Program-made: the position numbers and the translations under genes
Notes under the pieces: model-generated
What the model saw: the letters and a program-made list of their open reading frames with translations, nothing else
Database searches by the model: none
What the model was told of the DNA's origin: nothing
Assembly: GCA_017302255.1 (NCBI GenBank)
Contig: JAFLDV010000017.1
Coordinates: 30,119-94,118, forward strand
Direction: 5' to 3'
Length of the DNA stretch: 64,000 bases
Source of the DNA: Gammaproteobacteria bacterium
Lineage (GTDB): Bacteria > Pseudomonadota > Gammaproteobacteria > Enterobacterales > Alteromonadaceae
Shown here: positions 34,651 through 52,441 of the stretch, piece by piece
Layout of the letters: every line of letters starts with the position of its first letter
Numbering within the stretch: position 1 is the stretch's first letter

Positions 34651-35112
34651 TTATTTTGTGACTTGCACTGGCGTTGCAACAACCCGTAAACGACAGACAC
34701 CACAAGAAAAGCTCAGGCCTTGGTTTACCGAATATAGTTCGTGGTGCTGTAATTCTGCGTGTTTGACTACCGCTGGCGCATGGAAAATTGGCCGTACGGT
34801 ACCGTTGTCACTGGTGGTTTTGCTGCTTGCTAGCTCTACTTCACTGAGTTGATGACAAAACGCATCAGCGGCGCGGCGCGCGGCGGTGTAGTCGTCGTCA
34901 TCAAATTGACCACAACTTTTTAATTGATTACATACAGCGTTGTCAGCACCTTTGAACTTGCTGAGCACAGGCGCGGTCAGGCTAAACTGGCCTAACACTG
35001 TAACCTGACCACCGGCACACCAGCCATTATCCAGCGCTTCTTCATGTGCTGATAAAGTGAAAGGTAATAATAAACACAGAGCGCTAATACTTAGTTTTCT
35101 TAAATTACGCAT
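34651..35112 (-). CDS. Small secreted Cys-rich protein with WCxGG and VNQG signatures
   Basis: A 153-residue exported protein. The signal peptide (RNLRKLSISALCLLLPFTLSAHE) leads to NGWCAGGQVTVLGQF, a helical middle with Cys (CNQLKSCGQFDDDDY) and a final block YSVNQGLSFSCGVCRLRV. Seven Cys in the mature part suggest several disulfides or a metal site. The start at 35112 is supported by AAGGA ahead of it and by the signal peptide; the frame stays open for 26 more codons without support. It converges on the TPR protein and shares two signatures with the secreted protein at 31791. Function unknown. Confidence 0.75.
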   Translation of the reverse strand: MRNLRKLSISALCLLLPFTLSAHEEALDNGWCAGGQVTVLGQFSLTAPVLSKFKGADNAVCNQLKSCGQFDDDDYTAARRAADAFCHQLSEVELASSKTTSDNGTVRPIFHAPAVVKHAELQHHELYSVNQGLSFSCGVCRLRVVATPVQVTK

Positions 35113-35240
35113 CAAGCCAATCCTTTTCCAAACAATCCAAAGGTAACTTAGCGTAATTTGGCTCAACTCCGCGACAAAAACCCCGGGCAAAATCGGGCAA
35201 AATCAAAAAGCACAACTTAAGCTATTGATATTTAAACGAG

Positions 35241-36371
35241 TTAATCCGAAACCACTAAAGTACAGGCTTGTGCCCACATCGACCAATAACTTGATTTTTG
35301 TAACTGAGTCCATAACCGCTGGCCCAAAATATTGGCGCCGGTTTGTGGCAACCAAGCCGCAAGTAATAGCGAATCTGCGACTAAACTGCCTTGTTCAGGT
35401 AAATCCTGCAATTGCGTTGCCATTAATGGATCGGTGAATCTGTTGCTAAAGCCCCATAAAGTTAGAATAAAAGCAGCGACTAATCGTGCTTCTGGTTCTT
35501 CTTCTGGCGCAGCCTCATGCCATTGTCGACTTGGATAGCCGTTACATTCCAACACCAAATGGCCAAAGCCGGTGAACATACTGCAAATTACCACTTCTTC
35601 TTGCTGCTCATGATCTCCACCCGCCAATGCACAAAACTTGCGAGCTAATCTTGCTTGTTGCAGACTTTGCGCCAAAATCTGCTGTCCACGCTCGGCTGAA
35701 CAACGCGATGTCGCCTCAGGCTCAAGCGTCAAAGCAACAACTAATCCATATAACAAATTCAGTCCCATGCGACTAATGGCGACCGACACTGAACTTGTGT
35801 CTTTGGAAAAACCCATATAGGGCGAATTTGCTAACTGCAATAAACGTGATGTGAGGGTCGTGTCTTGTTCAATAATTCTGGATAGTGCGTCGATGTCAGC
35901 ATCCGGATCATCGAGCATACTTTTCACCTCAGAGGCGATTTTCGGCACCAATGGTAAATCTTGTAACGAGAATAATTGACGTCTTAAGGCTGGGTCAAAC
36001 GTCAGCCATTGCAAGGCCTGTACCCGCTGCAATAGAGCTCTAAAGCCAGTGCCACTGAGCTGACGACTACTAAAGCTATGAAACTGCTGTAAATACTGTA
36101 GGACTATTTCATCTTGGCAATCTGGTACCAACATGATTCTGACCGCCATCGGCAACAATAAAGTCAGATTGCGGATCTCTGCCATAGTTAGATCCTGCAG
36201 CATGGCTTGATCCATGATTAATAGATCTTCTTCGCCCTCTGATTCATGCTGCCCGAGGTAAGCCGCCACTGAGGAATAACTTTTAAGCTGCCACTGTTCC
36301 GGGCAGAACGGCTGTAACTGTTCAGCCAGTTGCTGATCGCTGCTGAGCAATAACACATACTGCATTGGCAT
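35241..36371 (-). CDS. HDOD-domain protein with degenerate receiver
   Basis: A 376-residue signalling protein. Residues 1-120 have the size and pattern of a receiver (YVLLLSSDQQLAEQL, DLLIMDQAML) but lack the conserved acidic pair and the KP near the end (SSRQLSG), so it probably cannot be phosphorylated normally. The HDOD domain follows (LVPKIASEVKSMLDDPDADIDALSRIIEQD, SRLLQLANSPYMGFSKD). HDOD proteins act as non-catalytic signalling modules. It lies 24 bases after the histidine kinase gene as the last gene of the leftward operon. The second ATG (36365) fits the ribosome-binding site slightly better. Its partner with an intact receiver is at 43060. Confidence 0.8.
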   Translation of the reverse strand: MPMQYVLLLSSDQQLAEQLQPFCPEQWQLKSYSSVAAYLGQHESEGEEDLLIMDQAMLQDLTMAEIRNLTLLLPMAVRIMLVPDCQDEIVLQYLQQFHSFSSRQLSGTGFRALLQRVQALQWLTFDPALRRQLFSLQDLPLVPKIASEVKSMLDDPDADIDALSRIIEQDTTLTSRLLQLANSPYMGFSKDTSSVSVAISRMGLNLLYGLVVALTLEPEATSRCSAERGQQILAQSLQQARLARKFCALAGGDHEQQEEVVICSMFTGFGHLVLECNGYPSRQWHEAAPEEEPEARLVAAFILTLWGFSNRFTDPLMATQLQDLPEQGSLVADSLLLAAWLPQTGANILGQRLWTQLQKSSYWSMWAQACTLVVSD

Positions 36372-36395
36372 TATCCTATTGGTTAGCTAAACCTG

Positions 36396-37787
36396 TTACT
36401 GCGATTGTTGCAAAGGTAATCGGATCTCAAAAGTTGTCCCGACTGCTATTTTGCTACTCACGCTGACTGTCCCATGGTGTTGATCAATAATAGCCTTGCT
36501 GAGCGATAAGCCAAGTCCAGTCCCCTTTCCAACATCTTTTGTGGTGAAAAATGGATCAAAAATCCGGTTGATTATTTCCTCAGGAATGCCTTGGCCGTTG
36601 TCTGATATTCTTATAACCGCTTGGTCTGCATCAACAAAAGTCGCAAGCTCGATCTTCCCCTGCACTCCGGACATCGCTTGCGCGGCATTCATCACCATGT
36701 TCAGAAATACTTGGCTCAGTTGTGATGGATTAGCAAGTACCAACAATGGTTCTGTCGCCAGCGCATAACGCACTGTGGTTTTAGTTTTGATTTCGCTCCA
36801 GATAATTTTGACGGTACTTTCCAGAATTTCGTTAACGGAAACGATTTCTAACTGCCCGCGATCCGGATGCGAAAAGCGGCGCAAGCTGTTGATGATGTCC
36901 CGCAACCTTATCGCTCCTTCCATCGAATCATTGACTAACTCAACAGAGTCCTGAAGCATATAACCAATATCTTCTGACTTATAAATTTGTTTTAATTCAG
37001 TCTGTTGCAATCGATACTCTTCAGAATCAACCGGCATACTACTGAGATTTTGATAGCATTTAATTAATCGTTGATAGGTGGTGACATACGACTTGAAGGT
37101 AGTGATATTACTTAGAATATAACCAAGTGGATTGTTAAGCTCATGGGCAACCCCGGCCGCTAATTGGCCAAGCGATGCCATTTTCTCCGACTTCATTAAT
37201 GAAGCTTCCATCTGCAATTGTCGTGCTTTGAGTAACTCGGTTTCTTGCAGTAAATTTTTCGCTTCGATCCTATCTAAGGTATTGGCGGCAAAAGCAACAA
37301 ACTCTTCAACCAGGGACGCATGATTGGAACCAAAAGCGGCAGATTCGCGATGACCTAATAACAGATAATAGTGATGTGACTCAGTTTGAAAAGGTTGCAC
37401 TAACATCGAAGTCATACCCTGGCAGCTGCCGCCAGAATAAGAAGGCCAGCCCTTTATCGTGGTTAAATCGGCAACGTTCATTTGTACTTTGGGCAATAAG
37501 GCTAATAGTTGCTGCTGCTGCGCCAGCGGAACTTTTTCACAGAAATCAGTGCATGCGAGTAACTCAACAGAATCATCTTTGAGCAGCAAAATGCTCGCAC
37601 GATGGAACGGAATAACTTCGGCGAGCAATTCAAAAAAACGGATAAACATGTCATGGGGAGATTGCAGCGACAGCATTACATGCAGACCTCGCTGCATTAA
37701 TTGATTCATCTGCTTATAAACTTCCAGACGCTGTTTTTCTTGCGTCAACAATCGAACACTGGTACGTAGTAAATCAATTTCGCTCAT
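36396..37787 (-). CDS. Soluble histidine kinase, NahK-like partner of the FIST protein
   Basis: A 463-residue kinase with no membrane segment. An N-terminal coiled coil and a GAF-like domain (residues 45-190) precede a dimerisation helix with the phospho-acceptor His near 215 (LAAGVAHELNNPLGY) and an HATPase domain with NMVMNAAQAM, DNGQGIP and GKGTGLGLS. There is no receiver. The start (ATG, 37787) has GGGAG ahead and overlaps the FIST gene by 14 bases. FIST-type NO sensors (NosP) are commonly encoded beside the kinase they inhibit, so this is the likely NahK. The GAF domain could bind a second ligand. Confidence 0.82.
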   Translation of the reverse strand: MSEIDLLRTSVRLLTQEKQRLEVYKQMNQLMQRGLHVMLSLQSPHDMFIRFFELLAEVIPFHRASILLLKDDSVELLACTDFCEKVPLAQQQQLLALLPKVQMNVADLTTIKGWPSYSGGSCQGMTSMLVQPFQTESHHYYLLLGHRESAAFGSNHASLVEEFVAFAANTLDRIEAKNLLQETELLKARQLQMEASLMKSEKMASLGQLAAGVAHELNNPLGYILSNITTFKSYVTTYQRLIKCYQNLSSMPVDSEEYRLQQTELKQIYKSEDIGYMLQDSVELVNDSMEGAIRLRDIINSLRRFSHPDRGQLEIVSVNEILESTVKIIWSEIKTKTTVRYALATEPLLVLANPSQLSQVFLNMVMNAAQAMSGVQGKIELATFVDADQAVIRISDNGQGIPEEIINRIFDPFFTTKDVGKGTGLGLSLSKAIIDQHHGTVSVSSKIAVGTTFEIRLPLQQSQ

Positions 37788-38976
37788 TCTCACTCCCAAA
37801 CACTACGGCAGAAACCATTAGGTTGCCATGCCGGTTAGTGCCATCAGCGAAGAAGCCTTGCTCACCAAAGGTAAATGTCACGACAAAGGGTAACTCTGGT
37901 AATTGCCTGCGGATCCCTTGTAACACCTCAGCCATTTTTTCGGGAATGGCGAGCATACAACCGCCACAAAATACGATGACTGCCGCGCTTGGTAATTGGC
38001 CCTGCGCAATAATCTGGCGTGCGGCAACAGCCACAACTTCACCGGCTTTTTCCGCTAACTCCGTTGGATTGCCCGCCAGCAAATATACGCGTTCCCCCTC
38101 TTGGACTGTAGAAAATAGCCCCATCCGCTGATCGGCTTCGACATAGGCCGGGTGGCTTAGCAAAGTAACCGGACTTTCGTCCAAGCCACTAATGATTCGA
38201 CCTATCGGGTGAAATGAGCTTTGCGACAACACATTCGTGCGCATAAATGGACTAAATGGCGGTAGCCCCTGCCAACGCCGATAAACGTCTGCGGCAGGCA
38301 TTTGATCAAGTTCAATAATTTCACGATCAATCGCTTTTGACACTAATGCGGTGTCGCCAGTTAACCGATAGCCAGAACCAAAATGCCCAGATATCAAGAC
38401 TGATGGATATAACACCGCGACCACTAAAAGCTCGCTGCCATATTGATCCTGACTAAATTGGGTCCAATTGCCACTGATGTCGTTATCAGCACTGCTACCA
38501 CCAAATACCGGTATACCTGTGCCCACCGCATCTGCAAATCCAGCGAGGATAGACTCTTCATGCCCAGGAGCCTGATAACACCAAATCATGCTAGGTGCCC
38601 TACCTTCGACTTGCGCATTGCTTATGGCTTGTTGCAGGACTTGTTTGGCATGCTGGCGTACATCACCGGTCGTTAAAACACAGCTTGCGACGCCATAATG
38701 ACCTTTGGCATCAAAAATCTGCATGACTGCTAAAGTATCTGGATATAAGTCAATCGTTTGCTCACTAAGTGCACCACGACACGAACTACCACCTATCCAT
38801 AACTTCGATAAGGCTTTGACTTGAGATAAACCTGAAAACCGCGCAATTTGGCGAGGGCTGCCAAATACAAAGCTTAAATCAGCCTGTTGCTGATTTTGCA
38901 GTTGCAGTAGCAAATCCTGCTCTAATTCCGACGCTGGATCTGCGGCAGAGATAGCGGTACGGACTTTAAATCTCAT
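37774..38976 (-). CDS. FIST-domain sensor protein, NosP-like
   Basis: A 400-residue cytoplasmic protein with an N-terminal FIST domain (SKLWIGGSSCRGALSEQTIDL, AVGTGIPVFGGSSADND) and a C-terminal FIST_C domain (GDTALVSKAIDREIIELDQMPAADVYRRW, AVIVFCGGCML, VVTFTFGEQGFF). FIST proteins of this size include NosP, a haem protein that senses nitric oxide and controls a co-encoded histidine kinase. Whether this one binds haem cannot be told from the sequence, as FIST proteins may also bind small metabolites. It overlaps the HnoD-like gene by four bases (ATGA) and the kinase by 14, so all three are translated together. Confidence 0.8.
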   Translation of the reverse strand: MRFKVRTAISAADPASELEQDLLLQLQNQQQADLSFVFGSPRQIARFSGLSQVKALSKLWIGGSSCRGALSEQTIDLYPDTLAVMQIFDAKGHYGVASCVLTTGDVRQHAKQVLQQAISNAQVEGRAPSMIWCYQAPGHEESILAGFADAVGTGIPVFGGSSADNDISGNWTQFSQDQYGSELLVVAVLYPSVLISGHFGSGYRLTGDTALVSKAIDREIIELDQMPAADVYRRWQGLPPFSPFMRTNVLSQSSFHPIGRIISGLDESPVTLLSHPAYVEADQRMGLFSTVQEGERVYLLAGNPTELAEKAGEVVAVAARQIIAQGQLPSAAVIVFCGGCMLAIPEKMAEVLQGIRRQLPELPFVVTFTFGEQGFFADGTNRHGNLMVSAVVFGSENERN

Positions 38977-40328
38977 TCAACCGTCTCCTTAGCATCGTCA
39001 ACGACTTCAGGTTGTTCGACTAAAAACAACAATTCAGCATGACTGCCGGACAATAATCGACGCAATTTAGACAATACGGCCTCAGTCAAAATCTGGCCTT
39101 CTGGTAACAACAACATATTCTTTTGATTGTAGACGTTGGCTTTGAGTTTCATACCAGGCTGTAACTGATCAAGCGGTAAACTGCCGTTTTGTGACGGTGA
39201 ACGTATTGATTCAGGGGCTGGCGCACCTGCACTCACCTCTGATAAAGCCATTAATACCAAGGGGTCATACATGGCGCCTTGCTGTTGGCGCATCATGCGC
39301 AGCGCGTTATTGGCATCAATACGTCGAGGCAACATCCGTCCGTTTAAGTAGCCATAATAGTCACGAGCCACAGCGAGTATGCGTGAGCCTAGCGGAATGT
39401 GCTCAGCGTTCAATTGATCCGGATAACCACTGCCGTTAAATAATTCGTATTGATGTCGAATTATTTCCGCCACAGGCGCCATTGCTGTAGCTGGTGACAA
39501 TATTTCTTCGGCAAATCTGGTATGTTCGCGATACCGTTGCCACTCATTTTCATCCAAAGTCCGCGTCGGTTTACTCAGTAAGGTTGGTGGTAATCCAGAT
39601 AATCCAATTTCCGACAGCATTCCAGCCAGAGCCAAATGCTCTTGTTGCTGTGGCGAAAGCCCCATGTGCCGCGCTAAGTTCCTGCTGAGGTAACTCAGGC
39701 GCAGCGCAAATTGGCCATCAATCAGTGGATTCACGTTTATTTGGTTGTAGAGCACCTTCATTAGTGACTGGTTTTGGTTCTCCACCTGCTTCATGCTGTA
39801 TTTGAGTTGGGTCAGAATTTGTTTGAGTTGCGTTGTGCGAAGTTCCACCCGATTTTCTAAATCTTGGTTCAGTAACTTTAACTGACGGTTTTGTTCCAAC
39901 ACTTGTTGTTGTAATGCGTGGTTATGCTTTTGCAACTGAACGAGTTTAAGGCCATCAGTCACCGCGTTAATCAGCTCCTGATTATTCCAAGGCTTTGAAA
40001 TGTAACGGCTAATTTTACCGCTATTAACCGCAGCGACTGTCGATTGGATGTCGGCATAGCCAGTCATCAGGATCCGATAACCATCCGGCTGTAGTTTATA
40101 GGCACGCGTCAGAAATTCAGCGCCATCCATCGACGGCATACGCATATCGCTGATAATCACGTCGAACTGATGCTGTTTCATCAGTTCTAGCGCCTCAGCG
40201 CCGCTATTTGCCGCCATTAACTCCAATGGTTCAGAGACAAAAAGCCGCCGCAAGGACTTGAGGATATTCACCTCGTCGTCAACACATAGCACTTTTTGCT
40301 TGGCCGCAATTACGGTTTCACTAGTCAT
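38973..40328 (-). CDS. Receiver/degenerate HD-GYP protein, HnoD-like
   Basis: A 451-residue response regulator. The receiver is intact (VDDE, phospho-acceptor Asp 61 in IISDMRMP, SKPW). A coiled coil (130-195) joins it to an HD-GYP domain whose catalytic HD pair is replaced by Ser239-Glu240 (GMLSEIGLSGLP instead of LLHDIGKxGxP), while the GYP is kept at 301-303. It cannot be an active c-di-GMP phosphodiesterase by this motif. Shewanella HnoD is such a degenerate protein and acts as an allosteric inhibitor of the EAL protein HnoB. It is the first gene of the leftward operon; the SD lies beside a 14-base palindrome. Confidence 0.85.
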   Translation of the reverse strand: MTSETVIAAKQKVLCVDDEVNILKSLRRLFVSEPLELMAANSGAEALELMKQHQFDVIISDMRMPSMDGAEFLTRAYKLQPDGYRILMTGYADIQSTVAAVNSGKISRYISKPWNNQELINAVTDGLKLVQLQKHNHALQQQVLEQNRQLKLLNQDLENRVELRTTQLKQILTQLKYSMKQVENQNQSLMKVLYNQINVNPLIDGQFALRLSYLSRNLARHMGLSPQQQEHLALAGMLSEIGLSGLPPTLLSKPTRTLDENEWQRYREHTRFAEEILSPATAMAPVAEIIRHQYELFNGSGYPDQLNAEHIPLGSRILAVARDYYGYLNGRMLPRRIDANNALRMMRQQQGAMYDPLVLMALSEVSAGAPAPESIRSPSQNGSLPLDQLQPGMKLKANVYNQKNMLLLPEGQILTEAVLSKLRRLLSGSHAELLFLVEQPEVVDDAKETVE

Positions 40329-40338
40329 CGACTGCTCC

Positions 40339-40352
40339 TTAGAGCGCTCTAA
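40339..40352. promoter_or_regulatory. Perfect 14-base palindrome upstream of the HnoD-like gene
   Basis: TTAGAGCGCTCTAA is a perfect palindrome ending at the SD (AAGGAG) of the gene that starts at 40328. It can be an operator, or an RNA stem that hides the ribosome-binding site. Confidence 0.6.
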
Positions 40353-40365
40353 CGCTTTGACGAAG

Positions 40366-40400
40366 AAAAGACAAACACTGTCTTTTTTGTCCTATTTGTC
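40366..40400. promoter_or_regulatory. Inverted repeat and TTTGTC repeats in the divergent promoter region
   Basis: AAAAGACA and TGTCTTTT flank AACAC exactly (40366-40386), and TTTGTC is repeated at 40386-40391 and 40395-40400, with GACAAA at 40370-40375. Spacing of about nine bases puts the copies on nearly the same face of the helix. It lies between the two regulatory operons and is the best candidate operator of the HTH-receiver protein at 40463. Confidence 0.6.
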
Positions 40401-40462
40401 TTCCAATATATTTATGCTAGAGTATTGGATAATAGTCGTCAATTTTAAAAGGTCTATCTTTG

Positions 40463-41026
40463 ATGAAAACTTTAAAACCCAGTGAGATAGCTGCCTATTG
40501 TGATGTCCACCAAAGAACGGTGAGTCGCTGGATCGCTAATGGCCAGTTAAAAGGGCATAAACTACCTGGCCGTGGTAATTATCGAGTTGTGTTAGACGAC
40601 TTCTTGGTCTTTCTGAAAAAATTCCAAATCCCGGTTCCAGCAGATTTTCAGGCATTGTCGCTGCCGAAAATTTTAGTCATCGACGATGAAGAAGGTTATC
40701 TAAAATCGCTAAAGCGGCTATTTATCAATTATGGTTATCAAGTCGCGACGGCCAAAGATGGTTTCGCGGCAGGTGTCAGTTTGATGAGCGAAGATCCTGC
40801 GCTTGTTACACTGGACATCAATATGCCAGGGCTTAATGGTTTTGAGGTCTTACAATTTATTCGCCAGCGCGCAGAACTCGCGGACTTAAAAGTGATCGTA
40901 ATTTCCGGTCTTGATGATGTGGATTTGCAACATGCAATGAACTTAGGCGCTGATGCTTACTTGAAAAAACCTTTTGATAATCAAGAGCTCATAGCGTTAG
41001 CAGCACGGCTTCTAGCCGACAGATAA
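40463..41026 (+). CDS. HTH-receiver transcription regulator, HnoC-like
   Basis: A 187-residue protein with an unusual order: a DNA-binding HTH of the excisionase/MerR type at the N-terminus (LKPSEIAAYCDVHQRTVSRWIANGQLKGHKLPGRGNYRV) and a receiver at the C-terminus (IDDEE near 73, phospho-acceptor Asp 118 in TLDINMPG, LKKPF). The ATG at 40463 has AAGG ten bases ahead. This is the layout of HnoC, the transcription repressor of the Shewanella NO network that is released when phosphorylated. It heads the rightward operon and faces the HnoD-like gene; the inverted repeats at 40366-40400 are its likely target. Confidence 0.8.
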   Translation: MKTLKPSEIAAYCDVHQRTVSRWIANGQLKGHKLPGRGNYRVVLDDFLVFLKKFQIPVPADFQALSLPKILVIDDEEGYLKSLKRLFINYGYQVATAKDGFAAGVSLMSEDPALVTLDINMPGLNGFEVLQFIRQRAELADLKVIVISGLDDVDLQHAMNLGADAYLKKPFDNQELIALAARLLADR

Positions 41027-41057
41027 ACCTTTCGTCCAGCTCTGCGGGAGTTCGCTT

Positions 41058-43067
41058 ATGAAGTCCGGAATACTGTTAGTCGACGATGAGTTAAATATTT
41101 TACGCGCACTGGAGCGTATGCTGCGACGCGCTGGCTATGAAGTCTTCTGCGCCAATGGTGCTAAAGAAGGGCTTGTTGTCTTTGAGCAACAAGATATCAA
41201 CGTAATCATTACCGACTTTCGTATGCCAGAAATCAATGGCGCCGAGTTTTTGAAACTCGCCAAGCGACAGTCCCCGCACACAGTGGCAATGATTTTAAGT
41301 GCATACGCAGATTTTAATTCCGTAGTTGAGGTGCTCAACAGTGGACTTGCGTTTAAATTTCTGCAAAAACCTTGGCTAGAAACACAGTTGCTCGAAGATA
41401 TAGAAGCTGCTCTGGAAAAATATGATAACGAGCGTCAACAATATCTTCGAACCCAATTATTGATTGGTAGCCAAGATGCATTGTTGGAATTTGACCGTCG
41501 AGGTCAATTAATACGCTTTAACGCCGCAGGCCAAAAGCTGCTTGGCTTGTCCGCCATGGAAATGCAGCAAGCCGCTTTAAGCACTTTATTTCACAATATT
41601 CAGGTTGAACAGTTAGTCGCATTTTTGCAAAAACAAAGCCTTAGTGTTTCTGTGACTACCCAAAAAGGGATCCCGCTGGAATTAATCCACCAACTCAGTG
41701 ACGACGATCATTATTTGCTGCGGGTCGAAGCTGTGCAGTCCGTATCGCATGTCACCGAACAATTTGCTGACATGCCAGAAGTTCTGGATCAGCTGCATCT
41801 GCTACAAGAAATTGACTTGTTGCTTGCGGTGGATGCTCGACCTTTAGCTGTGATTTATTTAGATATTCGCAATTTTAGTGATGTCCACCACTCACTTGGT
41901 TTTCAAGGTGCCGACCAGTTGGTCGCCATGCTTGGCACCCACTTACTTCATCAAGTCAAAGACCGCGGTAAACTCGCGTACTTATTTGCCGATCAATTCG
42001 TGATTGTGATCCAAAAATGGCGGCATGAAGCGCAATTACAGGACATTGTGCACAATGCGGTTCAAGAGTTCGACAAGCCACAGGTTATCTTAGGTAAAGC
42101 CTTACACGTGCGCTTTAATGTCGGTTATACCATAGCCCCAGATGACGGCGCAGACGCTAAAACGCTCATTCATCAAGCCAGACAAGCCGCACGCAGTCCT
42201 CATCGACCTGAAAGCAATTTTATGCTTCGGTATGACCGTCGTTACATCGAATCCAGAAAACTACAATACGAAATCAGCAATGCTTTATATGAGGCTGTTA
42301 GTCAGGATGAATTGCAGCTGGCGTACCAATGCAAGGTCGATCTACAAAGCCACAAAATCGCTTCAGCCGAAGTGTTATTGCGTTGGACACACCCTGAGCT
42401 TGGCTCGGTATCACCGGCGATTTTTATCCCCATCGCAGAAAGAGACGGACAAATTCACGAATTAGGGGTTTGGGTTATCCGGCACACGCTGATGCAGTTG
42501 GTGAAGTGGCGAGATGCTGGTTTAGATCTCCCGCAAATGGCTGTGAACATTTCACCCATTCAATTACAACAGCGTGACTTTATTCAAAATTTACTGGCTC
42601 TAGTGCGTGAGTTTTCGGTTCATCCTTCGCATCTGCAGCTGGAGCTTACGGAAACGGCAGTCATGGAGCATTTGGATTTTGGCCTAAGTCAATTGCAACT
42701 GTTGCGCGAAGCCGGCTTTTCCATAGCCATTGACGACTTTGGCACTGGCTACTCGTCATTGTCTTACCTAACAAAATTACCGGTCGATGTGGTAAAACTT
42801 GATCGCAGCATCATCAACGATATTGAGCATTCACTAGCTACTCAAAGCATGGTCCGCAATATTATTCGAATGAGTCATGAGCTTGGTATTTCGCTAGTCG
42901 CTGAAGGCATTGAAACTAAAGAACAACATGATTTGCTAACTCAGATGAATTGCAACTATGCTCAAGGTTATCTATACAGTAAACCGGTTGATGCGGGACG
43001 ATTTTTGCAATTGGCATTGCAACAACCACTAGCCGCGATGTTAAGCGGGGACCAAACTAATGCATGA
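41058..43067 (+). CDS. Receiver-PAS-GGDEF-EAL c-di-GMP phosphodiesterase, HnoB-like
   Basis: A 669-residue response regulator. The receiver has VDDE and phospho-acceptor Asp 53 (IITDFRMP) with KPW. A PAS domain (residues 135-230) follows. The GGDEF domain is degenerate, with FADQF at about 311-314 where GGDEF is expected, so it should not make c-di-GMP. The EAL domain keeps its catalytic set: E438 (EVL form), N in AVNIS, E in LTETAVM, the DD of IDDFGTGYSS, K in VVKLDRS and E in VAEGIE. It should break down c-di-GMP. It is the effector that would be phosphorylated by the kinases here; Shewanella HnoB is the model. Overlaps the next gene by eight bases. Confidence 0.82.
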   Translation: MKSGILLVDDELNILRALERMLRRAGYEVFCANGAKEGLVVFEQQDINVIITDFRMPEINGAEFLKLAKRQSPHTVAMILSAYADFNSVVEVLNSGLAFKFLQKPWLETQLLEDIEAALEKYDNERQQYLRTQLLIGSQDALLEFDRRGQLIRFNAAGQKLLGLSAMEMQQAALSTLFHNIQVEQLVAFLQKQSLSVSVTTQKGIPLELIHQLSDDDHYLLRVEAVQSVSHVTEQFADMPEVLDQLHLLQEIDLLLAVDARPLAVIYLDIRNFSDVHHSLGFQGADQLVAMLGTHLLHQVKDRGKLAYLFADQFVIVIQKWRHEAQLQDIVHNAVQEFDKPQVILGKALHVRFNVGYTIAPDDGADAKTLIHQARQAARSPHRPESNFMLRYDRRYIESRKLQYEISNALYEAVSQDELQLAYQCKVDLQSHKIASAEVLLRWTHPELGSVSPAIFIPIAERDGQIHELGVWVIRHTLMQLVKWRDAGLDLPQMAVNISPIQLQQRDFIQNLLALVREFSVHPSHLQLELTETAVMEHLDFGLSQLQLLREAGFSIAIDDFGTGYSSLSYLTKLPVDVVKLDRSIINDIEHSLATQSMVRNIIRMSHELGISLVAEGIETKEQHDLLTQMNCNYAQGYLYSKPVDAGRFLQLALQQPLAAMLSGDQTNA

Positions 43068-44217
43068 ATTTACCGCCTACATCGTTGATGACGACGAATT
43101 CATTGTTCGCGCGTTACAACGTACTCTTAAGCGATTGGTACCACATTGGCAAATCCACTATTTTGTCGATCCTAGCCTCTTAGTTGCGCAATTACCCAGC
43201 ATAACTAACGCCCATCTGGTAATTTCCGATCGTATGATGCCTGTCATTCACGGCGAGGCAGTGCTTGGAGCGGTAAAACAACATATCCCATCAGCCATTC
43301 GGGTATTGCTCACTGCGGATACTTCCGCTGAAGTGATAGTACAAGACTGTTCGCTGATCCATCATTTTTTAGCAAAACCATTTACTGATGCCGATTTTGT
43401 TCGAGTCTTCCAATGCGCTGAGCGGCTTGCCACTATGCCAATCGATGCCAAGACCCGCAATACTCTCGGAAGCATGTCGGAATTACCCATTCTACCGGCG
43501 CATTTTTATCAGCTACAGCAACTTTGCCATGATCCCGCGTCGGAGCTGAATCAACTGGGTGTTGTCGTGGGCAGAGACCCCGTGTTGGTCGGCCGGATCT
43601 TGCAGCTCGCTAATTCTCCATTTATGGGATACAGCCGTGCCACCAACGCAATTGACGAAGCTTTACTGCGGCTTGGCTTTGATTTGGTTTTGGGGCTAGC
43701 GGCGAATTTATATTCGCATCAGCAAATGAGCGGTAAAGTGACTGAACAAGTCCACCAGCAAATATTGACTCAAGCATGGCAGCAGGCAACTATCGCCAAA
43801 GTGTTAGCCCGCCAAAGCGAACTATCAACAAAACTACAGGACCAAATATTCATGGGCGCCCTATTATGCGCGCTCGGTCAATTGGTGTTGATTGCGCAAC
43901 CCAATACCTTTGCGAACAATGAAAAGGCAGTAGGCGATTTTTGGCCTAACGGCGATTTAATTACTGCGTACTTATTAACTTTGTGGGGCTTTGAACCTGC
44001 GATCTGTCATGCGGTCCTCACCCAGCAACAACTCAGGGACTTACCAGACGACAGTAGCCTTATCGCCGCTTGTTTACACAGCAGCCGTGTGCTTTGGCAG
44101 CGACTAAATTCGCGAGATCCGATGCAGGTTGCCCCTGAAGTCCCACAATTCCTACACCGCGAATTCGAGTTGCTGTGGCACCAAGCGGTAACTGGCCAAT
44201 TACGCGCCTTGTGGTAG
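43060..44217 (+). CDS. Receiver-HDOD signalling protein
   Basis: A 385-residue protein with an intact receiver (VDDDE, phospho-acceptor Asp 57 in ISDRMMP, AKPF) and an HDOD domain (LPILPAHFYQLQQLCHDPASELNQLGVVVGRDPVLVGRILQLANSPFMGYS). It resembles the HDOD protein at 35241 in the LQLANSP segment and in overall layout, but here the receiver is complete. The gene overlaps the EAL gene by eight bases and is followed five bases after its stop by the hybrid kinase ATG. A possible reading is a phosphorylatable HDOD arm of the same network. No enzyme activity is expected of HDOD. Confidence 0.82.
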   Translation: MHEFTAYIVDDDEFIVRALQRTLKRLVPHWQIHYFVDPSLLVAQLPSITNAHLVISDRMMPVIHGEAVLGAVKQHIPSAIRVLLTADTSAEVIVQDCSLIHHFLAKPFTDADFVRVFQCAERLATMPIDAKTRNTLGSMSELPILPAHFYQLQQLCHDPASELNQLGVVVGRDPVLVGRILQLANSPFMGYSRATNAIDEALLRLGFDLVLGLAANLYSHQQMSGKVTEQVHQQILTQAWQQATIAKVLARQSELSTKLQDQIFMGALLCALGQLVLIAQPNTFANNEKAVGDFWPNGDLITAYLLTLWGFEPAICHAVLTQQQLRDLPDDSSLIAACLHSSRVLWQRLNSRDPMQVAPEVPQFLHREFELLWHQAVTGQLRALW

Positions 44218-44222
44218 CGCCT

Positions 44223-47200
44223 ATGACAGAGCAAGCGTTGTTCAAACGCACGGTGTTTTTTGTCGGCGTTACTCTGGCCGGTTACATTGCTAATAACATG
44301 GCGCTGCAATTAAGCGATGTCACGCCACTATTGCTCGGCCTTATCGCGCCAATGTTATTGCTGCTCCGACTCGGATTTTTAGTTGGCCTGATCAGTTTGT
44401 TAGTCGTGCTTTTACCCTTAGCTCCAGGTCCACTTTGGGTCTTGGCTGCTGCTCAGTTTTTTTTACTGTGGCCAGCGCGGCGTTTCCATTCTTTGTCTCT
44501 TGTGCTGGTGTCAGGCGCCTACTTGTTGTTAGCAATCGGCGTATTGGATCACACCTCACCCCATCAGGATCCGATGTATTTAAGCTTCTCCGCGCTACTC
44601 TATTGCATTAATTTTTTGCTGAATTGCGCCGGGAGTAAGATGTTGTTTGACGTCACAGCTGCTCGCACTGAACGGCGTCGACAGACCTTACAACATCAAC
44701 TGGCTTCGCGGATTGCCGTATATTCGGCAATACCGGTCTCATTTTTAACTATGATGGCGTTATTCGGGGCGACGGTTCTCGATTTATCAAAAAACAATGC
44801 CAAACATCTACAATTAAACCAACATGTTAGCTCAGAACTTACCAGTCAATTGACAGGTTATATCAAACAGCTAGAACTCACTCGGCAACATCTTGATAAA
44901 GTGCCGCAAGATGAACTATTACGCGAATTAGTGAAATCAAACCCAGCATTCATCTCCGCACTTCGCACTGACGCTCAAGGCATTGTGCAGGGGTTTTATA
45001 AAGAATTTATCGCCGCAGATATTCGGAATTCTTCGGTAGCGCATCGGGAGTACTTCAGCGTGCCAAAAGCCACGCTCAAACCGATGGTCAGCAATATTTT
45101 CCGAGGGCAACAACTTGGGCATGACTTATTGTTTGCCGTTGCCGTACCGTTGTTTTCCAATGAACAATTTGCTGGGGTATTAGAGGTATCAGTTTCTTTG
45201 GAGCGTTTAACCAGCCAATTTCCTGCCCCACATCCAAGTTCTAATTATCAATTTTTATTACTAGATGGCGCTCAATTAAAGTTATGGGGTCAAGACCAGT
45301 TACAGACCCCACTTGGGCAATTTGTTAATCTTGAGGCGAATGAACTAGTCAGTAAGTTCCAACTATTTTCCCGCTCTTGGTTTAATCCAGTTCACTCAGT
45401 GCAACTGAGTGAGAATGGCGAGCATATGCTGCAAAAAACCGCAATCAGTCAGACCAACTGGCAACTATTGCAATATAGCGAAATGGCAAGCCTCTACTTT
45501 CGCTATGATTTGTTTCTCGCAGTCGCCCAACTTGGACTCGCATTTTTAGTAATTTTAATGCGTTATTCAAGTCGTCAGTTTGTCAGTGGCTATACCGAAA
45601 CGCTTGGCCATGTGATCCATTCTTTAGAGCGTTTAGAGCCTGATCAAGAGCATGTCACTAGCGTGGGGCACAGAGCTACCGCCATTGAATTTGACGAATT
45701 GCAAAGCAGTTTTGACCGCATGCAACGTCGTATTGCGCAAGCGCATCGGCAACTCCAACAAGTATTATTAGAAAAAACCCAACTATCGGACGAATTGGAA
45801 CAGCGGGTACAGACCCGCACTCGAGAATTAGCCAGCGAACGCGATAAGGCCAATGAACTTGCGGCAATTAAAAGTCGGTTTTTGGCGAACATGAGCCATG
45901 AACTACGCACGCCGCTAAGCATCATTCAAGGTTATGCAAGCCAAATGCAGGCTGAAACCTTACCACCCGCCGCACAAGCTGAGCTAAAAGCGATTCGGGA
46001 ACACAGTATGTTCTTGCTGCATATCGTGAATGATATTTTGGATACCGCCAAAATTGATGAAGGTAAATTACGGTTAGATCCACAACCCATCAACTTGCCG
46101 GAATTATTGCAAGAACTGGCGGCAACTTTGCAGCTATTAACCCGCAATAAGGACTTAGTAGCTGATTTGCAAATTGCTGTTAATCTGCCTGCGGTTGTGA
46201 TCACCGATAGCTTTCGGCTTCGTCAAATCGTAATGAACTTAATGAGCAATGCAGTAAAATTTACCGAACATGGCTTTGTGCGTCTAAGCGCAAGTTACCA
46301 AGCACCAAACTTGGTGATTGCCGTGACCGATAGCGGCACCGGCATTAGCTTGGAACAACAACAACGGATCTTTCAAGCTTTTGAACAGGCCGATGTCAGC
46401 ACCACTCGTCAATTTGGCGGCACGGGATTGGGTCTCTATATTAGCCAACGTTTAGCAGAAATGCTGGATGCCAGATTAACCTTACAAAGTGAGATTGGAC
46501 AAGGTAGTTGTTTTACCTTAGAAATGCCTATTACCTTAGCCAACGCAGCTGTCATCGAACATGCAGAGCTCCCTTCAGCGCAAGTTCCAGAGCTACCAAA
46601 CCGAGTTATCTTAATTGTCGATGATGTCAGTGAACTGAGGCAATTATTTCAATCCATGCTCAAAGGCAGCAGTGCCAGTATTGTCCAAGCCGCAAATGGT
46701 GATGATGCCCTAGCTGAGATTGCCAAACAGCCTATCGATCTGCTGTTGTTAGATATGCACATGCCGGTACGCGATGGTTTAAGCACACTAAAAACGCTGC
46801 GCCAACAAGGTTATACAATGCCGGTGATTGCATTAACTGCCGATGTGCAATTGCATAAACACCAAGAAATACTAGATGCTGGCGGTCAGCAAGTTTTAAC
46901 AAAACCGGTCGATGCCACCAACTTAATCTCAGCAATCCAAGCGGTGTTGGGTAATCCGTCAACGACCGAAGTTATTGATAGTTCGGCACAAGCTGTAGGG
47001 ATCTTGTTAACTCAATCAGCAAACAGGGAACCGGTACCTAACGACACCGGCTGGGACGATATACAGTTGAGTTTTGTCGAAAGCTTGCCACCACAACTGA
47101 CACAGTTACAACAAGCGGATAATGAGCTTATGCATCAACTGCTGCACAAACTCAAAGGGACAGCAGCTTGCTTGGATTTCGGCACGCTAAGCCAGTTGGC

Positions 47201-47312
47201 CTTACTTGCCGAAACCCAACTGAAAGAACATCAAGAATGCGCGCATGAACTAATTGCGCTGACAGACCACATTAATGAGTTAATTCAAAAACTCCACACT
47301 AAGGAAACTTAA
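44223..47312 (+). CDS. Membrane hybrid histidine kinase with receiver and HPt
   Basis: A 1029-residue sensor kinase. Six or so N-terminal membrane helices (residues 8-155) lead to another helix near 185, then a periplasmic Cache-like sensor (SNPAFISALRTDAQG, FAVAVPLFSNEQFAGVLEVSVS) and a helix near 450. In the cytoplasm: a HisKA with His559 (ANMSHELRTPLS), an HATPase (NLMSNAVKFTEH, GTGLGLYIS), a receiver with Asp844 (LLLLDMHMP) and an HPt with His975 (LLHKLKGTAA). This phosphorelay could hand phosphate to the receivers of the cluster. The ATG at 44223 follows the previous stop by five bases; a longer frame overlaps that gene. Confidence 0.85.
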   Translation: MTEQALFKRTVFFVGVTLAGYIANNMALQLSDVTPLLLGLIAPMLLLLRLGFLVGLISLLVVLLPLAPGPLWVLAAAQFFLLWPARRFHSLSLVLVSGAYLLLAIGVLDHTSPHQDPMYLSFSALLYCINFLLNCAGSKMLFDVTAARTERRRQTLQHQLASRIAVYSAIPVSFLTMMALFGATVLDLSKNNAKHLQLNQHVSSELTSQLTGYIKQLELTRQHLDKVPQDELLRELVKSNPAFISALRTDAQGIVQGFYKEFIAADIRNSSVAHREYFSVPKATLKPMVSNIFRGQQLGHDLLFAVAVPLFSNEQFAGVLEVSVSLERLTSQFPAPHPSSNYQFLLLDGAQLKLWGQDQLQTPLGQFVNLEANELVSKFQLFSRSWFNPVHSVQLSENGEHMLQKTAISQTNWQLLQYSEMASLYFRYDLFLAVAQLGLAFLVILMRYSSRQFVSGYTETLGHVIHSLERLEPDQEHVTSVGHRATAIEFDELQSSFDRMQRRIAQAHRQLQQVLLEKTQLSDELEQRVQTRTRELASERDKANELAAIKSRFLANMSHELRTPLSIIQGYASQMQAETLPPAAQAELKAIREHSMFLLHIVNDILDTAKIDEGKLRLDPQPINLPELLQELAATLQLLTRNKDLVADLQIAVNLPAVVITDSFRLRQIVMNLMSNAVKFTEHGFVRLSASYQAPNLVIAVTDSGTGISLEQQQRIFQAFEQADVSTTRQFGGTGLGLYISQRLAEMLDARLTLQSEIGQGSCFTLEMPITLANAAVIEHAELPSAQVPELPNRVILIVDDVSELRQLFQSMLKGSSASIVQAANGDDALAEIAKQPIDLLLLDMHMPVRDGLSTLKTLRQQGYTMPVIALTADVQLHKHQEILDAGGQQVLTKPVDATNLISAIQAVLGNPSTTEVIDSSAQAVGILLTQSANREPVPNDTGWDDIQLSFVESLPPQLTQLQQADNELMHQLLHKLKGTAACLDFGTLSQLALLAETQLKEHQECAHELIALTDHINELIQKLHTKET

Positions 47313-47353: not shown

Positions 47354-47884
47354 TTAATTGCCTTTGGTGTTATTCCCATGCGCAACCATGATCCAGCTGT
47401 CTAAGCTAATGCCTAACTCGGTGGCAGTCTGTTGAAAGCTCTTCAACATTTCGGCGCTAGGATTTGGGCTACGCGCCAATATCCAACCATAACTAAGATC
47501 TGGGCCTACCACTAACGCCATGGAATAATCAGGTGACAACCGCGCAATGTTATAGGCGCCGTAAAATGGACCAAAAAACGACACTTTTAAGCGACCAACA
47601 GTTGGCTCATCAACAAAATATGCCTTGCCCTCTGCGTCTTGCCATGCGCCTTCCTCGGCATCATAACCGCGATTAAGCACACGCACACCGCCATCGTCTC
47701 TCAGACTGTAATTGGCGGTAACTTCAGTTAAACCACGTTCGAAACTATGATCGAGGCGGGCAATTTCATACCAAGTTCCCAGGTAGTTTGGTAATGAAAA
47801 CTGCTGAACTGGAGTTACCCCTGGTGACACACCGGTGCAGCTAACAACCAGCAACAACATGACTAATAAATAAATTTTCCGCAC
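47354..47884 (-). CDS. blc: Bacterial lipocalin (Blc-like lipoprotein)
   Basis: A 176-residue outer-membrane lipocalin closely following E. coli Blc: LGTWYEIARLDHSFERGLTEVTANYSLRDDGG, then GKAYF, LKVSFFGPFYGAYNI and YGWILARSP. The GxW motif and the calyx strands are complete. A short signal ends with LLVVSC, a lipobox with Ser at -1, an acceptable but less common form. I take the GTG at 47884 as start, which gives the usual Blc length; a longer frame reaches 47935. It may bind lysophospholipids or fatty acids in stress. It converges with the hybrid kinase. Confidence 0.88.
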   Translation of the reverse strand: MRKIYLLVMLLLVVSCTGVSPGVTPVQQFSLPNYLGTWYEIARLDHSFERGLTEVTANYSLRDDGGVRVLNRGYDAEEGAWQDAEGKAYFVDEPTVGRLKVSFFGPFYGAYNIARLSPDYSMALVVGPDLSYGWILARSPNPSAEMLKSFQQTATELGISLDSWIMVAHGNNTKGN

Positions 47885-48098
47885 GAACAACCCCAGGGCA
47901 ACACATAAAAAGATGTTAAAGCTACGCCCCAACACTCAGAGTGGTTCACCAGTGACAGCAATTAAATTTAAACGCCAAGCCTTAGAAATCATCGCTATCT
48001 AAGCTTTTGCTTCAAAATCAATTGTTCATTGAGCTGCGTCGTCAGCAGCCGCTCAGAATTTTAGCGGATATGTTAGCGATCTTCAGCCAACCAACCAC

Positions 48099-51000
48099 CT
48101 ATTGCATTTGCCATTCGCTAGGTAATGCTGCACTAAATGCCTGCAACGCATCTACGCTGGCTTGGACAAACCGACTGAGACTTAACAACTCATCTTCGGT
48201 CATTTTTTGCTGATCTTTCAGATGCTGCTCGTACTTCCCTGCTTGATCTGCGAGTTGCTGTAAGCCCATTTGCGCCGAGCTACCTTTTAATTTATGGCAA
48301 ATCTGCTGCAAGCTTTTGCTATCTTCTGGGCGACTTTGCCCTAACTCCCGCGACATCTGCTCTAAACTGCGGATAAAAACCGGCAGCATTTTTAAATAAA
48401 ACACTAACTGGCCATCCAGCCTTTGTTGGGTTAAATCCCAATCTATCCCAGCAATTTCGGCAAGTTGACGCAATCGCTCCTCAGATGAGAAATGCTTCTG
48501 CTGCCCTGTGGCTTTGGTGCGCTTTGCTACTGACTTTTTCGGCTTTACTGCTTGCGGAATAAATGGCTTTAACAAGGCAACCAATTCAGCAAACTCAAAA
48601 GGCTTTCCGATGTGTCCGACCATGCCCGCAGCTAAACAATGTTGTCGGTCTTCATCTGAAGCGTTCGCGGTCATCGCGATAACCGGGATGCTGGCCAACC
48701 GCAAATTGCTTTTTATGTGCGCAGTTGTGGCATACCCATCCATTTTCGGCATCTGCAGATCCATTAAAATCACATGGGGCAATTCGCTAAGTTCTGCCAA
48801 CTCAAGCGAGGCTTGTTCACCATCGTTACAACAATGCAATACACAACCTTCAGACTGCAGAAGCTCAGAAGCGACCTTTTGATTGACCAAATTATCTTCA
48901 ACTAGCATCACTCGAAGCCCTGCCAACGCATCGGACGTTGTGGAGAAATCGTGGTCTCGCGCTGTCAGCTCGCTTTGATAACAGCGAGCAATTGCATCGG
49001 CCAACATGCCGTAAGTAAAAGGCTGGACTAAACAGGCATCGATGTTCTGAATACCCACCAATTCCTCACGTTGAACTATTGAAGTCAGTGCGAGCCAGCG
49101 CGATGCAGGAAACTCATACTTGAGCCGACTCACGGCCTCTTCTTGTTCTACCCCCCATTCAAACATCACCACAGCTGCTGGCGATGCTTGTAACAATTGC
49201 CGAAGTGCCGGTAAATGCAAGCAGGTTTGTAATTTGGGTTTTAAGTCCACTAAAACATGTTGCAGATGGTCACGGTGAGAATCGTCAGGACACAACAAAA
49301 TTAATTGGGGTAATTGCAGATCACTGATGACGGTGGCTCCTTCGCTCGATGCCGCATTCAGCGTTATTTCAAATGAAAATACACTGCCCTTTCCGAGCGA
49401 ACTTTGCACTTCGAGTTCGCCGCCCATCATGCGGACAAAACGCTGGCTGATGGCAACTCCAAGTCCAGATCCACCAAATCGCCGCGAAATCGAATTATCA
49501 GCTTGAGTGAAACCACTAAATATCGCTTTGCGACGCTGTGGATCTATCCCAATCCCAGAGTCTTTGACAGCAAAAGCAATTTTAATTTGTGGCCATTGGC
49601 TCTTTAACCGCTTCACTTGCAAGATCACATCACCTTGCTCAGTAAATTTCACCGCGTTACCCGTCAAGTTGATAAAAATCTGACGTAAACGGAGCGCATC
49701 ACCCACCAACTTTTGTGGCAAATTGGGATCAATTTCACACCACAGGTGAATTGGCTTTTTCTTAACATTTGCCGCCATAATCAAGCAAACGTCTTGCAAC
49801 AAAGGATCAAGCTCAAACGGCAACTGCTCCAGTTCCATTTTACCAGCTTCAATTTTCGAGAAATCCAGAATGTCGTCTAAAACGCCCAATAAGGAACGAG
49901 CCGCAGTGTCACTTTCATGAACATAATCTAATTGTTGATGTGTGAGTGAGGTCCGTCTCAGTAATGCCATCATGCCAAGCAGCGCATTCATAGGGGTGCG
50001 CAGTTCATGGCTCATATTGGCCAAAAATTCTGATTTGGCTTTATTAGCATTATCGGCGGCTAATTTGGCCTGCAACAACAACTCTTCAGCCTGTTTATCT
50101 AGCGTGATGTCCCTATTAATGCCATGCATGCTGAGCACTTTGCCACTAAGATCGCGCTCGACCTGCGCAGCCGCTTGGATATATCGAATATTGCCTCCTT
50201 GATCGAAAATACGAAACGCCGGATGGAAGGTCGATTGGCCTTGAAGTGCTTGGTGCAATTGGCGTTCAACCTCCGGCAGATCATCTGGATGTAACCGGCT
50301 TCGCCAGGTGCGATACAACAAAGGTTGCGAACGTTCTTCATCATTGATGGCATAAAGGCGATACATTCGTTCGTCCCAATGCAAGCTATCATCACCGAGA
50401 TCCCAGCGCCAGGTCGCTAAATCAGCAATTTCTATGGCCTTCTTCAATTGATCTTTTGCATGTTGCAAATTGTATTGCTGAAGCTTACTTTGCGTAATAT
50501 CGCGACTAATCGCGATATATTTAACGATTTTTCCTGCCTTATCGGTGAAAGGTGCAATTGTAGTATCCAGCCAAAATAGCTCCCCAGCTTTGTTGCGATT
50601 GCAGATTTCACTGTGCCACGGACTCCCTGACGAAATTTGTTGCCACATCTCATGCCAGAACTCAGCATGATGCAATCCCGAGCCAAACATGCTGTGATTT
50701 TTGCCCAACAATTCAGCTCTGCTATAGCCTGTCAATTCGCAGAAAGCTTCATTCACATCAAGCATTAATGCCTGCTCATCGGTTACTGCGACAATAGAAT
50801 GCAAATGCAAAGTGGTTAATAAAGCTTGGTTATCACGAAGTGCAGTTTCCAAGCGTTGTTGTACCAACTTGCGCTCGGTTACATCGGTTTCAATTGCCAT
50901 AAAACCGACCAATTCCGTTGAGTCTTTGAGGATTGGTTGAATTTCAAGATCTATCCAATATTCTTGGCCAGATTTGGCTTGATTCAATAATTCGCCCCGA

Positions 51001-52256: not shown

Positions 52257-52441
52257 GCTTTTTTGTCCTGCAATAAATCCTACGACGATCATCGAATCCG
52301 ATGATCACTCAAAGTATTTTTCTTGCACAAAGAATGGCCACAAATTGCACATTTGTCATGGCGTTCGAGGAATTTTTTCTAAATTAGAGCCAAACAGACG
52401 AATAGCATAGATAGTTTACTGCGCAAATAAATACGAGAGTT

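Follow-up and report, generated by a model that had tools for sequence, protein, structure and literature searches.

The question raised by positions 35241-47312 of the DNA analysed here is whether a nitric oxide (NO) and cyclic diguanylate (c-di-GMP) signalling network of the kind known from Shewanella oneidensis lies in a single locus, and which of its parts are additions. The stretch, referred to below as the window, comprises 64,000 nucleotides of contig JAFLDV010000017.1 (assembly GCA_017302255.1) and comes from a 4.03 Mb, 99.89% complete genome, G000, belonging to Rheinheimera as the collection used here delimits that genus. A first-pass annotation had described eight genes here, forming a NosP-type network enlarged by two HDOD proteins and a membrane hybrid kinase. 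On comparison of the sequences, the locus can with good confidence be regarded as the Rheinheimera version of the S. oneidensis hno/NosP two-component network, including a FIST protein predicted to bind haem and NO.

Gene content, order and conservation

Open reading frame (ORF) calls and Pfam searches confirmed the position and strand of all eight genes, which are arranged in two tightly packed divergent operons with 134 bp between them. The left operon, on the minus strand, has the gene order nosR-nosP-nosK. It includes HnoD/NosR (38973..40328), consisting of a receiver (86.6 bits) and a degenerate HD-GYP domain (HD_5, 121.7 bits), a FIST protein of the Shewanella hno-cluster type, the predicted NO sensor (37774..38976; FIST 64.9 and FIST_C 58.7 bits), a soluble histidine kinase in the NosK/NahK position (36396..37787, with an ORF reaching TTG at 37799; HATPase_c 97.1 bits), and HDOD1 (35241..36371), an HDOD protein (Pfam HDOD 85.6 bits) whose N-terminus has a receiver fold predicted from alignment and modelling. 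The right operon, on the plus strand, has the order hnoC-hnoB-receiver/HDOD-hybrid kinase. It encodes the predicted repressor HnoC (40463..41026, ORF opening with TTG at 40460; HTH_17 33.3 and receiver 86.8 bits), HnoB (41058..43067; receiver 76.9, GGDEF 60.4 and EAL 248.6 bits), HDOD2 with an intact receiver (43060..44217; receiver 34.9 and HDOD 91.5 bits), and the membrane hybrid histidine kinase (44223..47312, ORF opening with GTG at 44175; HisKA 61.4, HATPase 89.1, receiver 91.0 and Hpt 27.5 bits). With the likelier ATG starts of the soluble kinase (37787), the helix-turn-helix (HTH)-receiver protein HnoC (40463) and the hybrid kinase (44223), the spacings are +24, -14 and -4 bp from HDOD1 to HnoD, and +31, -8 and +5 bp in the right operon.

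HnoD matches the NCBI NosR family NF053512 with 473 bits at a cut-off of 400. Its HD-GYP domain is degenerate, as first annotated, with the HD metal-site pair replaced by SE and GYP kept; by the general catalytic meaning of HD-GYP, GGDEF and EAL motifs, HnoD does not qualify as an active HD-GYP phosphodiesterase. The EAL motifs searched for in HnoB are intact and its GGDEF motif is degenerate. The receiver, GGDEF and EAL domains of the receiver-PAS-GGDEF-EAL architecture proposed for HnoB were recovered, and the weak PAS domain lies under the Pfam cut-off.

Nineteen distinct clusters were compared by tblastn (E ≤ 1e-15, best-score assignment): that of the window (33 kb), 14 further loci, and L032, L144, L145 and L146. 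The 18 loci other than the window have clusters holding most of the eight genes, indicating that the grouping is beyond chance. Genome G492, a Shewanella genome that is probably S. oneidensis MR-1, contains exactly one FIST gene, at L144, and therefore the L144 FIST protein should be the NosP published for S. oneidensis. The divergent cluster at L144 holds seven of the eight gene types of the window, a receiver-HDOD and the membrane hybrid kinase among them: HDOD-EAL-HTH/receiver genes run in one direction, opposite to HD-GYP-FIST-kinase-hybrid kinase, after which comes a kinase/CheC/receiver unit. The expectation that HnoB, HnoC, HnoD, the FIST protein and the FIST kinase lie together in one locus was thus borne out, their orthologues having the same divergent layout in this MR-1-like genome. 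The description of the receiver-HDOD (HDOD2) and the hybrid kinase as additions did not hold, since both belong to the Shewanella cluster and are thus core members. HDOD2 was found in 18/19 clusters, the miss being L052, a 10-kb contig ending inside HnoB, and the hybrid kinase in 17/19, the misses being L052 and the 9.6-kb contig L043. HnoC (by selection) and HnoB are present in all 19 clusters and HnoD in 18, being absent in S. basaltis L042. Conservation of the set in relatives consequently extends to seven genes found together, and not to HDOD1.

The FIST gene was found in 14 clusters and the FIST-type kinase in 15, while H-NOX with HnoK occupies four others (L042, L053, L145 and L146), which are four of the five clusters devoid of FIST. 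No cluster contains both sensor genes, and one, L044 of S. decolorationis S12, contains neither: the kinase and HnoD are kept there, about 300 bp remain at the FIST position (L044:8291-8589), and H-NOX is encoded elsewhere in the genome. In L144 the FIST-kinase pair is flanked by HnoD and the hybrid kinase, whereas H-NOX-HnoK lies at the far cluster end in L145 and L146, so the sensors were exchanged inside the cluster but at different positions. On a midpoint-rooted tree of HnoC, HnoB and HDOD2 from 18 of the 19 clusters (the incomplete L052 was left out), the four H-NOX clusters, three of Shewanella and one of R. baltica, form one clade (100/100), and the MR-1-type clusters (L144, L049, L044) are sister to those of R. 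lutimaris, Arsukibacterium and a metagenome bin (100/100). Since host families are mixed on this tree, the data suggest transfer of whole clusters between hosts. One sensor exchange and one FIST loss, in L044, explain the pattern of the clusters, the midpoint root giving no direction of exchange.

The H-NOX genes, of about 180 amino acids (aa), are those of L042 and L053 and of L145 and L146; a gene of about 192 aa that neighbours a second kinase gene in relatives of the genus, considered as a candidate H-NOX, was rejected after Pfam assigned it to CheC/CheX. A kinase-CheC/CheX-receiver unit (for example, L028:14790-17035) adjoins the hno cluster in at least 13 of the 19 cases, several stretches being short.

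The HDOD proteins

HDOD1 was found in 1/19 clusters, that of the window, and the first-pass view of a second HDOD protein as an addition stands for this gene; the novelty of the window is HDOD1 alone. The alignment revealed that its phosphoacceptor Asp54 is present and that other residues stand in place of the conserved Thr and Lys and of part of the acidic pair. Considering the roles of these residues in receiver domains, the HDOD1 receiver is likely phosphate-blind. The receiver fold is predicted with a mean predicted local distance difference test (pLDDT) value of 80.1, and the fold matches of the model are HDOD-type structures, MmoQ and SadB (9qzk, E 1.2e-4).

As judged from its sequence, HDOD1 likely arose by duplication: its BLASTP score to HDOD2 of the window is 143 bits, the best noted to an HDOD protein of a relative being 129 bits (L053; other database size). 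On the tree it is unplaced, with long branches. A protein search that scored a capped list of 7,991 candidates gave at least ten matches, comprising the window's own protein at 99% identity, three of full length (374-375 aa, 81-86% identity), a fragment, a protein at 32% identity and four remote proteins. The degenerate receiver and narrow distribution could mean that HDOD1 is a decaying duplicate without function, an unlikely explanation given that three homologues of 81-86% identity are full length and that the receiver fold is still predicted.

HDOD proteins elsewhere are described as adaptors or c-di-GMP binders, with conflicting reports on c-di-GMP binding by SadB (PMC6543031, PMC13104612). 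HDOD2 is likely a fourth output of the network, perhaps a SadB-like adaptor, and HDOD1 would likely be its phosphate-independent partner or competitor. A search of the open-licence literature found no study of the receiver-HDOD or the hybrid kinase at the hno locus.

Sensor, kinases and promoter

The predicted structure of the FIST protein (pLDDT 89.7) matched the FIST chains of FBXO22 (E 4.4e-08), which for the model confirms the FIST fold and is silent on haem; among solved structures, the FIST profile found nothing credible (best E 0.019). The protein is 40% identical to the L144 FIST protein. The profile searches proposed along with the first-pass annotation had a divided outcome, positive for the NosR model and negative for those of NosP and NahK. 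The FIST protein scored 22.4 bits against the NosP equivalog NF041558, with a cut-off of 450. No match to this model at E ≤ 1e-30 was found for the L144 FIST protein, and its close Shewanella relative at L049 scored 28.8 bits. Because the model misses the FIST type of the Shewanella hno locus, surveys using NF041558 would undercount likely NO sensors. NosR, NosP and NosK are adjacent in that order in the window, NosP being assigned by position and FIST domains only.

The soluble kinase has no hydrophobic segment in its sequence and possesses the phospho-acceptor and ATP-site motifs, its HisKA score (26.1 bits) being just under the cut-off of 26.9. It does not reach the cut-offs of the NahK/ErcS models NF041831/NF041832, no NahK match was found at E ≤ 1e-60 or among the best 25 of 83 matches, and its sole match at E ≤ 1e-60 is T2SS_HK (245 of 450 bits). 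The hybrid kinase has N-terminal membrane segments and a predicted extracytoplasmic region, followed by HisKA, HATPase, receiver and Hpt domains; the equivalent in a relative has a sub-threshold dCache_1 match (38.2 of 45 bits), and a search of the hybrid kinase for the CxxCH haem c motif found none. Raw receiver-receiver scores in the window are 224 for HnoD-HnoB, 128 for HnoD-HnoC, 101 for HDOD2-HnoB, 76 for HDOD1-HDOD2 and 110 for hybrid kinase-HnoB, the best of that kinase.

Two further FIST proteins are encoded in G000. One is a canonical NosP (L148, 502 bits) located beside a 788-aa NahK-like hybrid kinase (L148:8303-11822, G000:C10), which scores 562 bits, below the model cut-off of 1500. 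An ErdR-like receiver protein gene, under its model cut-off, lies near this NosP, and together they represent a second NosP system of G000. The third FIST protein (L002:1315-2622, G000:C12) has no NCBIfam match at E ≤ 1 and is devoid of the His and Cys common to both NosP types. These residues, His383 and Cys340, align between the window FIST type and canonical NosP and are missing in two other FIST proteins (in a weak alignment, with FIST loci L138 and L142, which gave no ORF, left out), and are candidate shared residues only. FIST-kinase pairs of the window type also occur outside hno clusters in other genera of the family (L034:7788-10390, L035:9143-11700).

The distribution of the genes was analysed in 22 Rheinheimera genomes (HnoC in 8, FIST in 9, H-NOX in 3) and in 129 Shewanella genomes (HnoC in 6, H-NOX in 41, window-type FIST in 2). 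All eight Rheinheimera genomes with HnoC carry the window-type FIST (hypergeometric 2.8e-5, relatedness being ignored in this and the following values), and in the ninth FIST genome, G018, the FIST contig is broken inside the HD-GYP gene. Both Shewanella genomes with FIST are among the six with HnoC (1.8e-3), and all of these six have H-NOX (7.9e-4), so that FIST or H-NOX is present in 14/14 HnoC genomes of the two sets. An order-wide sample of 394 genomes contained 12 with HnoC-like matches above 190 bits; besides the window, G003 and one Shewanella, these are nine further genomes. HnoC of the window shares 53-61% identity with those of seven genus relatives.

Upstream of hnoC, TGTC recurs at 40379, 40388 and 40397, and these three half-sites in 9-bp steps (40379..40400, plus strand) are the predicted HnoC operator. 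The tandem repeat overlaps the -35 region of the predicted hnoC promoter (40396..40423, plus strand), in which the -35 element TTGTCT (40396-40401) and a -10 region from TATGCTA (40413-40419) to TAGAGT (40418-40423) were placed manually, without a promoter tool. TATGCTA is located 46-50 bp ahead of the hnoC start in 19/19 loci and is preceded in 11 of them by TTTGTC pairs with exact 9-bp spacing. In six further loci TGTC-N5-TGTC is kept, according to a manual reading of the alignment, and in L041 and L047 one half is degraded. An HnoC regulon beyond the locus was rejected and its candidate sites are attributed to chance, since exact off-locus sites do not exceed those of the reversed control. 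One further exact operator-like site in G000, likely a chance occurrence, lies just upstream of a chemoreceptor gene (L085:1-1515, G000:C19), which is apparently in two pieces of 82 and 562 aa.

Several observations weigh against the identification of the locus as an hno/NosP network. The exact tandem is present at the locus in only 4/8 HnoC genomes of the genus, exact sites off the locus number five in the 22 genomes against 19 in the reversed control, and none was found beside the three H-NOX genes of the genus. The hypergeometric values take no account of relatedness, and no H-NOX-HnoC association was found in Rheinheimera (2/8 HnoC genomes and 3/22 overall, p 0.29). Five genomes that do not belong to the genus (L034-L038) have window-type FIST genes (E < 1e-40) adjacent to a kinase or receiver protein gene, with no hno genes in the stretch covered, and in G045, one of the nine other genomes of the order, the HnoC-like gene and FIST are about 2.2 Mb apart on the same contig. 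The low NosP-model score of the FIST protein also belongs here.

That score, the canonical NosP already present in G000 next to a NahK-like kinase, and the pairing of FIST relatives with kinases outside hno clusters in L034-L038 would agree with a FIST protein whose ligand is not NO but an amino acid, haem itself or another gas, in a general c-di-GMP switch that shares only parts with the NO network. This is improbable: the sole FIST gene of the MR-1-like genome is of the same type, with a low score in its relative at L049 too, four clusters without FIST carry H-NOX-HnoK, and, within the weak alignment, His383 and Cys340 are common to the window type and canonical NosP and absent from two other FIST proteins. 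It is likewise improbable that the cluster is driven mainly by the hybrid kinase, with NO as an auxiliary input: its retention in 17/19 clusters (with misses on short contigs) compared to 14/19 for FIST, and its location in the hnoC operon of the window, speak for such a role, but HnoK and HnoS were found to feed the three regulators (PMC6335343), and its receiver, whose scores with the four intact stand-alone receivers are 42-110, is not singled out as their relative, the scores of those four with one another being 50-224.

The hno/NosP network is thus preferred. Whereas gene content, gene order, motif integrity, conservation and sensor exchange among clusters were observed, its working is inferred as follows, including phosphotransfer, the binding of haem, NO and the operator, and the HDOD roles. 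The FIST protein would bind haem and NO and set the activity of the soluble kinase, which would phosphorylate HnoB, HnoC and HnoD. Phosphorylated HnoB, with its intact EAL domain, would degrade c-di-GMP, HnoD with its dead HD-GYP domain restraining it until HnoD itself is phosphorylated. Unphosphorylated HnoC would repress both operons from the tandem TGTC repeats that cover the -35 region of the hnoC promoter, and the hybrid kinase likely feeds in an extracytoplasmic signal via its receiver and HPt domains. The network likely tunes biofilm formation. As far as the sequence shows, the NO effect may be of either direction; in S. oneidensis, NO lifts the inhibition that NosP exerts on the kinase, and in some other species it strengthens this inhibition (PMC12570481). 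No H-NOX match (PF07700) was found in G000, and therefore the NosP type would be the sole source of input among the two haem sensors known for the network.

As a tentative generalisation, to which we give slightly less than even weight, the hno cluster may be a portable NO hub, in which the outputs (HnoB, HnoC and receiver-HDOD) and the periplasm-facing hybrid kinase are constant, NosP-NahK and H-NOX-HnoK cassettes swap, and whole clusters cross families; in this Rheinheimera, NosP-type sensing alone would drive the hub, and the duplicated HDOD protein with a dead receiver would be a phosphate-blind arm. Two conserved parts, the receiver-HDOD and the hybrid kinase, are hereby named in a model NO/c-di-GMP network, and the H-NOX-free genome offers a clean way to part NosP input from H-NOX input.

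Adjoining the cluster is an ORF of 179 aa (34651-35190) with no family above cut-off. Just past the other end of the cluster lie a Blc-type lipocalin gene (47354-47935) and a gene for a large CHASE-PAS hybrid histidine kinase (48099-52292), and a TPR-GGDEF diguanylate cyclase is encoded at 61617-63698 of the window.

Comparison with known systems

HnoB, HnoC and HnoD of S. oneidensis are reported by Nisbett et al. (2019) to be targets of NosP/NahK (formerly HnoS). In other published work, the three regulators are fed by both HnoK and HnoS, HnoD inhibits HnoB, and HnoS possibly senses another stimulus (PMC6335343); HnoC repression is lifted by phosphorylation (PMC8738867). The window shares with the S. 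oneidensis network the presence of HnoB, HnoC, HnoD, FIST and FIST kinase in one divergent cluster, as well as the receiver-HDOD and hybrid kinase. It differs in that the S. oneidensis-type network has H-NOX and HnoK, both types of system having been reviewed as HnoX-HnoK-HnoB and NosP-NahK-NarR (PMC8846402), while G000 has no H-NOX; that the hybrid kinase gene belongs to the hnoC operon in the window and to the hnoD operon in L144; that HDOD1 is extra; and that a search of 33 kb around the window cluster did not find the kinase/CheC/receiver unit of the Shewanella cluster.

With SadB, an HDOD protein of Pseudomonas, the HDOD proteins of the window have in common the HDOD fold and the biofilm setting, whereas SadB has a YbaK-like domain in place of the receiver (PMC6543031). 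In canonical NosP-NahK systems (NF041558/NF041831) FIST is likewise located beside the kinase, but the proteins of the window fail both models; a nosP-nahK-narR operon is described for Legionella (PMC11237717). The Burkholderia-type nosRPK operon (PMC12570481) resembles the left operon of the window in having neighbouring NosR, NosP and NosK, a soluble kinase and a degenerate HD-GYP receiver protein, and to this arrangement the window adds hnoC, hnoB, the HDOD proteins and the hybrid kinase.

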